NCBI GenBank assembly: GCA_903937385.1
Contig: CAIZZF010000029.1
Coordinates: 1 to 64,000, forward strand
Direction: 5' to 3'
Length of the DNA: 64,000 nt
Origin: an uncultured Holophagaceae bacterium
GTDB taxonomy: Bacteria; Acidobacteriota; Holophagae; Holophagales; Holophagaceae
Shown: positions 7,217 to 33,248 of the stretch, one piece after another
How the letters are laid out: each line of letters begins with the position of its first letter
Position numbering within the stretch: the first letter of the stretch is position 1
Notes under the pieces: model-generated
Told to the model about the DNA's origin: nothing
What the model saw: the letters and a program-made list of their open reading frames with translations, nothing else
Database searches by the model: none
Program-made: the position numbers and the translations under genes

Positions 7217-7312
7217 AACTCTCGCGGAGGGGCGCAGAGATTGCGGGGGTTGCAGAGAAAAGGATCCTTCCTCTGCGAACCTCTGCTTTCTCGTCTTTTC
7301 TCTGCGAGAGTT
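7217..7312. repeat. CTCTGCG-type hairpin repeat, copy 1
   Basis: The outer arms AACTCTCGC (7217-7225) and GCGAGAGTT (7304-7312) are exact reverse complements, and inner GCAGAG/CTCTGC words repeat between them. Seven T residues follow on the plus strand, so the element could end recR transcription. Related sequence occurs at 19262, 28699 and 33043. Confidence 0.75.
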
Positions 7313-14239: not shown

Positions 14240-14402
14240 GGTTGCAGGCCAGCGTTCTGAAGCGGAAAACGAGGTTCAGCGCGATTTGGCGTGGGGATTG
14301 GGGCCAAGGCACCCCGTTCTCGTCCTCCTTTGCCCGGGCCTCGAAGACAGGGACCCCGCTCCAGAGGCAAGGGCCAGAAACAAAATAGACCGGTGAGTAA
14401 CA

Positions 14403-14611
14403 GTGAGGAACGGTGAGCCTGCCACAAGCTGACAGCTCTTTCGGCTCATCCGGAATTTCAGGGAAGAACCACGACACGCCAACCCCACCCCTGGGTTTTC
14501 TCCGCACGTTCTGGCAATAGCAACCACGAGCTGGATGAATCCATGAAGAGCGGGCATTCCCTGAAACCCCGGAAGAACGGTTCGTTCTCACCGGCCCTCA
14601 CCGTTCCTCAC
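14403..14611. repeat. Outer inverted repeat GTGAGGAACGGTGAG
   Basis: GTGAGGAACGGTGAG at 14403-14417 and its exact reverse complement at 14597-14611 bracket the inner element. Related words (CGGTGAGTAACA on the left, CTCACCGGCC on the right) extend the symmetry. A T-run follows at about 14624. Confidence 0.75.
14449..14573. repeat. MITE-like element with TCCGG terminal repeats, copy 1
   Basis: TCCGGAATTTCAGGGAA (14449-14465) and TTCCCTGAAACCCCGGA (14557-14573) are terminal inverted repeats matching at 14 of 17 positions. The 125-base element includes ACACGCCAACCCCACCCC and CACGAGCTGGATGAATCC. A second copy, on the other strand, is at 32979-33223. No coding capacity is seen. Confidence 0.75.
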
Positions 14612-14670
14612 GGGTTATTCAGCTTTTTTTATTCCAGACCACGCGCCGCCGCCTTCACGGAATGAGCGTT

Positions 14671-31021: not shown

Positions 31022-32218
<1,197 letters not shown>

Positions 32219-32226
32219 GGTCTGCC

Positions 32227-32961
32227 ATGCGCTGCGTCGTCGCCAACTGGAAGATGAACCTGCAGTCCGAGGAGGCCCAGGCCTTCTGCGAGGATCTGCT
32301 CCTGCACATCGCCCCGGAGCCCCAGGCCGAGGTCGGCATCGCGCCCCCCTTCACGCTGCTCTCCCTGGTCAGTGGCCTCGTGCGGCCCAAGGGCCTGCAC
32401 GTGTTCGGGCAGAACGGCCACGCCGAGGACAAGGGCGCCTTCACGGGTGAGATCTCCATGCCCCAGCTGCGGGACGTGGGCTGCTCGGGCGTGCTGCTGG
32501 GCCACAGCGAGCGCCGCCAGTTCTTCGGCGAGACCGACGCGGCCCTGGCCAAGAAGATCAAGGCCGCCTGGCAGTGGGACCTGCTGCCCCTGCTCTGCAT
32601 CGGCGAGACCCTGGCCCAGCGCGATGCCGGCGAGACCCTGGCCGTACTTGGCCAGCAGCTGTCAATCCTCAGCCAGACGGGCCCCGGCCCCCTCTGGGTG
32701 GCCTACGAGCCCGTCTGGGCCATCGGCACCGGCCGCCGGGCCGAGGCCCCCCAGGTCCTCGAGGCCCACGGCTTCATCCGCGCCGAGCTCGCCCGGCACG
32801 GGGCCTGCACCGACTACGAGGTGCCCATCCTCTACGGTGGCAGCGTGACCCCCGAGAGCTTCCCCGAGCTGCTGAACATCCCCGAGGTGGCCGGCGGCCT
32901 CGTCGGCGGCGCCAGCCTCGACCCCCATAAGTTTGCCGCCCTCGTCAAGCAGGCCGGCTGA
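32227..32961 (+). CDS. tpiA: Triosephosphate isomerase
   Basis: Interconverts dihydroxyacetone phosphate and glyceraldehyde 3-phosphate. The 244-residue TIM barrel has the N-terminal VVANWKMNL with the catalytic Lys, GHSERRQFFGE with the catalytic His, AYEPVWAIGTGR with the catalytic Glu, and the phosphate loop LYGGSVTPES followed by GGLVGGASLDP. The ATG at 32227 is chosen because GAGG lies upstream and the protein then starts MRCVVANWK; an in-frame GTG at 32215 is alternative. It is followed by a repeat-filled convergent gap. Confidence 0.97.
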   Translation: MRCVVANWKMNLQSEEAQAFCEDLLLHIAPEPQAEVGIAPPFTLLSLVSGLVRPKGLHVFGQNGHAEDKGAFTGEISMPQLRDVGCSGVLLGHSERRQFFGETDAALAKKIKAAWQWDLLPLLCIGETLAQRDAGETLAVLGQQLSILSQTGPGPLWVAYEPVWAIGTGRRAEAPQVLEAHGFIRAELARHGACTDYEVPILYGGSVTPESFPELLNIPEVAGGLVGGASLDPHKFAALVKQAG

Positions 32962-32978
32962 ACTGACTTTTTGGCTCT

Positions 32979-33223
32979 TCTGGGATTTCGGGGAAGGCCA
33001 TCTCTCCGCGGATTCATCCAGCTCGTGGGGGAAGACCAACCCCTCTCGCAGAGGGCGCGGAGAGGGCTGAGGTTCGCAGAGCACAGCGGGTAACCCGCAA
33101 CCCTCAGCGCTCCTCCGCTCCCCTCGTCCTTTCTCTGCGAGAGTGGTTGCTTTCCCCTGAGCGTGCCGAGAACACCCAGGGGGTGGGGTTGGCGTGTCTT
33201 GGTGCCTTCCCTGAAATCCCGGA
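32979..33223. repeat. MITE-like element with TCCGG terminal repeats, copy 2 (interrupted)
   Basis: The ends TCTGGGATTTCGGGGAAGG (32979-32997) and CCTTCCCTGAAATCCCGGA (33205-33223) are inverted repeats matching at 16 of 19 positions. Read on the minus strand it aligns with copy 1 at 14449-14573, sharing TTTCAGGGAAG, ACACGCCAACCCCACCCC and CACGAGCTGGATGAATCC. It is about 120 bases longer because a second hairpin (33027-33157) lies in its middle. Confidence 0.78.
33027..33157. repeat. CTCTGCG-type hairpin repeat, copy 4, nested
   Basis: CTCTCGCAGAG (33043-33053) and CTCTGCGAGAG (33133-33143) are perfect 11-base inverted repeats. Weaker symmetry (GGGGAAG-CCAACC outside left, GGTTGCTTTCCCC outside right) extends to 33027 and 33157. 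It interrupts the TCCGG element at a point that is continuous in copy 1. Confidence 0.75.
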
Positions 33224-33248
33224 TGAACCTTTGTCTAGGCCCCCGAGC

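Follow-up and report, generated by a model that had tools for sequence, protein, structure and literature searches.

A miniature ISL3-type element carrying an inner hairpin, and a short copy of it nested in a third repeat family, in a Holophagaceae genome

The long intergenic repeat found in the window (the whole stretch of 64,000 nt that was analysed, part of the 3.68-Mb Holophagaceae assembly G000) belongs to the miniature inverted-repeat elements (MITEs), as a non-autonomous element of ISL3 type, and the hairpin in its interior is part of it. The whole element transposes and the hairpin travels along. Very likely, one joint explanation covers the repeat and its shorter relative in the window: an ISL3 MITE moved whole by a resident transposase, with the hairpin as fixed cargo and the short copy as a deletion derivative within a repeat of family C. 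Its assignment to the non-autonomous ISL3 elements is well supported; the type is already known and the 257-bp family is new within it. The following features are found in the window:

32973..33229, plus strand: complete miniature ISL3-type element with outer ends and inner hairpin (terminal arms, full-length profile match)
32973..32998, plus strand: left terminal inverted repeat GGCTCTTCTGGGATTTCGGGGAAGGC, same type as the left end GGTTCTTCCGGGATTTG of the ISL3 insertion sequence
33204..33229, minus strand: right terminal inverted repeat GGTTCATCCGGGATTTC... (minus-strand reading), same type as the right end GGTTCATCCGGGAATTC of the ISL3 insertion sequence
33028..33157, plus strand: inner GCAGAG hairpin in its true extent, with GGGGAAG..CAACC as left arm and GTGGTTGCTTTCCCC as right arm
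14443..14579, minus strand: element copy without most of the hairpin, 3' arm GTGGTTGCTATTGCC retained
14273..14649, plus strand: third repeat (family C, a further ISL3-type miniature element, right end truncated), host of the short copy
14435..14442, plus strand: left 8-bp target duplication GCTCTTTC within the family C repeat
14580..14587, plus strand: right 8-bp target duplication GTTCGTTC, 6/8 identical

The original prediction had described two copies that share internal words and terminal inverted repeats. Both are found in the sequence and recur genome-wide far beyond chance, but they extend over 32973-33229 and 14443-14579 rather than 32979-33223 and 14449-14573. A repeat search returned the outer arms of the long copy (32973-32998/33204-33229) as 26 nt with 85% complementarity and the inner arm pair (33029-33053/33133-33157) as 25 nt with 84%. 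The ends of the 257-bp family are of the ISL3 type, GGTTCWTCCGGGATTTC. The element is placed in the 3' intergenic region behind a gene read as triosephosphate isomerase (32215-32961), and its folding is 7.9 sd stabler than that of shuffled sequences. In 21 hairpin copies, 0 pairs were changed on both sides, so that a function as RNA is without covariation support. A search of the element against Rfam gave nothing at the gathering score, the sub-threshold matches being microRNA families and one viral stem-loop, and none of the papers covered by a literature search contained the decamer strings.

The 257-bp form is the normal form of the family, of which G000 holds a dozen and a half split copies or more and five congeners hold further ones; decayed copies may be missed in these counts, because they rest on similarity searches. 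The outer sequence occurs in G000 almost always as two halves that flank the same 115-base hairpin, and the copies in G037, G038, G039, G041 and G043 are likewise split by it. Among the 47 genomes of the genus that were searched, the composite is present in these five and in G000, and the others gave either no match or weak ones, for the most part with the hairpin. Beyond the window, matches in the genome reach E-values down to 1e-19 for the outer and 1e-52 for the inner sequence. The family is multicopy, short (250-299 bp) and devoid of a transposase gene of its own. One intergenic site has the element in one orientation in G000 (L050) and, at the orthologous position, in the opposite orientation in G037, G038 and G039 (L157, L166, L171), with an identical truncated right edge.

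Target sites were examined at 19 non-redundant sites, which remained from 27 full-length matches listed once orthologs and duplicates had been removed. Identity between the two flanks is highest at 8 bp (0.520 vs 0.327 permuted, z=4.28, p<=5e-5), with a secondary peak at 4 bp in the same permutation test. The flanks of the elements are 74-76% AT, compared with 32% AT for the window. At locus L055, where three relatives (G037, G038, G039) read GGCCGCTTACTTTTTTACGG, G000 reads TTACTTCT, the element and TTATTTCTTCACGG. In the same three genomes, the whole element is cleanly absent at the sites orthologous to L042 and L049, and it is also absent from the relatives compared at L038 and L041. Target-site duplications occur together with filled and empty orthologous sites, and the 8-bp duplications, the AT-rich flanks and the empty sites are marks of a transposing element. 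The copy at 32973 has no recognisable 8-bp duplication (2/8 identical), as is the case for several old copies, and its site is filled in G038 (L069) and G039 (L068) too. These copies without a duplication and the secondary peak at 4 bp count against the joint explanation. The proposal that a transposase-less repeat of this genome can move was correct; what moves is the whole 257-bp unit with its 8-bp duplications and not the hairpin by itself. The suggested comparison of orthologous loci did yield clean presence and absence, but for the whole element. At L042, L050, L056 and L235, miniature elements and one copy of an insertion sequence lie directly inside the T-tracts of apparent intrinsic terminators.

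The AT-rich 8-bp duplications and the GGYTCTTC ends point to ISL3. The ISL3 transposase domain PF01610 has four matches in G000, two of which represent the tips of copies that run off their contigs. On contig C5 lies an insertion sequence of 1333 bp (L133 924-2256) with a transposase ORF of 417 aa (L133 1000-2253), in which DDE_Tnp_ISL3 (E=6.4e-67), the ISL3 HTH and the zinc ribbon are found, i.e. three ISL3 Pfam domains. This insertion sequence and the window family agree at their left and right ends, the CTT vs CAT difference included. The terminal inverted repeats are common to the miniature element and an autonomous insertion sequence of the same genome, and the target duplications of the family are of the AT-rich 8-bp kind. 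Ends of the insertion sequence, 133-140 bp long and 100% identical, also lie at the tips of contigs C4, C11, C20, C21 and C22; the insertion sequence has thus multiplied recently. On contig C21 (L123 116-165), only eight T lie between its right end and a miniature element that begins with its own left end, as if one target duplication were common to both.

Judged by the match of their ends, the resident ISL3 transposase is probably the mover of the miniature element, acting in trans. It would cut at the element ends and move all 257 bp including the hairpin, with a preference for AT-rich intergenic targets at the 3' side of genes, for example the T-tracts of terminators. A trans-acting transposase with matching ends, for which a search had been proposed, was found, although of ISL3 rather than RAYT or IS200/IS605 type. 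A REP-like or IS200/IS605-type nature of the repeats, with a single-strand (Y1/RAYT) transposase as their mover, is extremely improbable: the elements are intergenic, palindromic, multicopy and transposase-less, as such a system would have it, but they have true terminal inverted repeats that match the ISL3 insertion sequence and they are flanked by 8-bp target duplications. Transposition by single-strand Y1 enzymes is not known to produce duplications of this kind.

The short copy had been interpreted as an empty site, into whose counterpart in the long copy the hairpin had inserted with a possible GTGG duplication. The junction AGCTCGTGGTTGCT is continuous in the short copy as claimed. The right boundary of the hairpin had been set too far inward: the inner stem runs about 15 bases past it, and GTGGTTGCTTTCCCC belongs to the hairpin. 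In nearly every full copy, GGGGAAGxxCAACCAC ahead of the hairpin pairs with GTGGTTGCTTTCCCC behind it at 8-13 of 15 positions (L150: 9/11; L152: 11/14). What had been taken for host sequence, GTGGTTGCT, is the 3' arm of the hairpin itself, and the short copy, which reads AGCTCGTGG TTGCTATTGCC, therefore retains half of the hairpin, with the left arm and the loop gone. Because the right arm GTGGTTGCTATTGCC is retained, a deletion is a better reading of this copy than an empty site. As a target duplication, GTGG was rejected, being a microhomology inside the hairpin arm: filled copies have the word to the left and to the right of the hairpin, and the short copy joins there. A one-step deletion between the two GTGG words accounts for the structure of the short copy, which, going by its arm and junction, is most likely an ordinary copy after hairpin loss at this microhomology.

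A search for the junction in seven genomes, with <=3 mismatches allowed, found the window copy as the sole uninterrupted one, plus one deletion in G038 (contig C23), so that presence of the hairpin is the rule. The hairpin-less copy in G038 has the join CTCGTGG|GTGGG, and the hairpin is kept at this place in G000, G039 and G037. A further hairpin-less remnant of 89 bp (G000:C3:34976-35064) has another breakpoint. These three different breakpoints among hairpin-less derivatives, together with the identity of GTGGTTGCT as hairpin arm, speak against the GCAGAG hairpin as an independently mobile unit that entered the outer repeat and duplicated GTGG on insertion, a scenario in which 14443-14579 would be an empty site and which is considered very unlikely. 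In its favour, the hairpin-less copy takes a marginal position in the tree of outer sequences. This tree, in which the long-loop copies are its neighbours, was set aside as proof of a deletion; being unrooted, it cannot on its own tell a deletion from an original absence of the hairpin. The tree is thereby also compatible with descent of the short copy from an old hairpin-less form, with a single capture of the hairpin by the ancestor of all other copies, ahead of the spread of the family, and no movement of the hairpin since. D-type elements in G036, G041 and G043, with the same ends and a different interior, fit such a history as well. It nevertheless appears very unlikely, given that the short copy holds the 3' arm of the hairpin spelt as in the long-loop subfamily (GCTATTGCC vs GCTTTTGCC in L123 and L124) and joins at the very GTGG word found on either side of the hairpin in filled copies. 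Under the preferred deletion reading, 14443-14579 would be an ordinary copy that transposed into the family C repeat and whose hairpin was deleted, sooner or later, between the GTGG direct repeats, half of the stem being left.

That one repeat of the window lies inside another was correctly recognised, but the true nest is the short copy within the family C repeat rather than the hairpin within the long copy. Family C is ~340 bp long when intact, has the ends GGTTCATCGCGGAATAGCGTG and shows perfect 8-bp duplications at L110 (AAAAGAAA) and L112 (CTTTTCTT); an insertion sequence with family C ends was found in G041 (L131). Most uninterrupted family C copies have a single GCTCTTTC at the place in question, and the window copy has GCTCTTTC and GTTCGTTC flanking the short element. 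Comparison of the flanks with eight uninterrupted family C copies gave a 9-base overlap, which was resolved as an 8-bp duplication. In G038 and G039, the site orthologous to 14273-14649 lacks the whole stack.

The GCAGAG hairpin family also occurs outside the outer element (L059, L062-L066 and positions 7219-7310 of the window). The copy at 7219-7310 (AACAACTCTCGCGGAG...CTCTGCGAGAGTT) has no ISL3-type ends. Most standalone hairpins have GTGGTT or a near variant beside GAGA, a further point for the deletion reading of the short copy. They are present at some and absent at other orthologous loci, and both this variation and their existence outside the element favour an independently moving hairpin; against it, no constant duplication is seen where standalone hairpins are variably present, and at L064 an inside deletion of the hairpin in G038/G039 has left half of it in place. 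Other hairpins, including some with GCCAAG or CACGAAG repeats, are seen where G000 has GCAGAG, namely in the G036 orthologs of L059 and L066 (L221, L225) and in the L062 orthologs L209-L211, as if hairpin types were swapped.

Between copies, the hairpin differs by 10.1% and the outer part by 19.3%. The idea that the hairpin is a younger insertion, based on this lower divergence, was rejected, as it is also less diverged at orthologous insertions (5.7%, 44/777, vs 12.0%, 130/1079; p=2e-6), i.e. at about half the rate and in 7 of 8 loci. Low divergence between copies is thus no sign of the later arrival that independent insertion would entail. The slower divergence may reflect selection, gene conversion between copies or mutational effects. 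Inner and outer pairwise distances correlate weakly (Mantel r=0.25, p=0.07), which is in line with an independent hairpin and counts against a purely joint history, since such a history would not predict the weakness. The preferred explanation takes the GCAGAG hairpin as fixed cargo of the element and not as a second transposon caught in mid-move.

The D-type elements (L181-L187) of G036, G041 and G043 combine the same ISL3 ends with internal GCAGAG arms, and perfect 8-bp duplications flank L183 (ACTTTTTT) and L184 (CAAAAAAA). The GCAGAG arms of these related miniature elements in congeners suggest that ISL3 ends and hairpins of this sort have long been associated. Hairpins of ~10-nt repeats are found in ISL3-type miniature elements as the GCAGAG type in two families and the GTGAGGAAC type in a third. 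It is conceivable, though doubtful at present, that the ISL3-type miniature elements of the genus, repeatedly equipped with ~10-nt-repeat hairpins, spread these through intergenic regions, and that selection then keeps the hairpin (e.g. as a two-way terminator) as the ends decay.

An apparent transposase-less mobile hairpin thereby becomes an ordinary, testable pair, an ISL3 insertion sequence with the miniature elements that go with it, hosted by a little-studied family of Acidobacteriota, and the short copy illustrates that a hairpin deletion can look like an empty site. Among known systems, ISPpu12a of the ISL3 family has inverted repeats of 24/21 and 8-bp direct repeats (PMC4133298). The window family resembles ISL3-family insertion sequences in its 8-bp duplications, GGYTCTTC-type ends and AT-rich targets, and differs from them in its length of 257 bp and the absence of a transposase gene. 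Bacterial MITEs include Correia elements, TIMEs and others (PMC4133298). With these, the family shares that it is short, multicopy, intergenic and non-coding, with ends that resemble those of a complete insertion sequence and strong folding of transcripts; unlike them, its core is a second, independently occurring hairpin family with ~10-nt repeats. The D-type elements have the same ISL3 ends and inner GCAGAG repeats as the window family, but their filler is another one, their length is 294-411 bp and their GCAGAG arms adjoin the ends.
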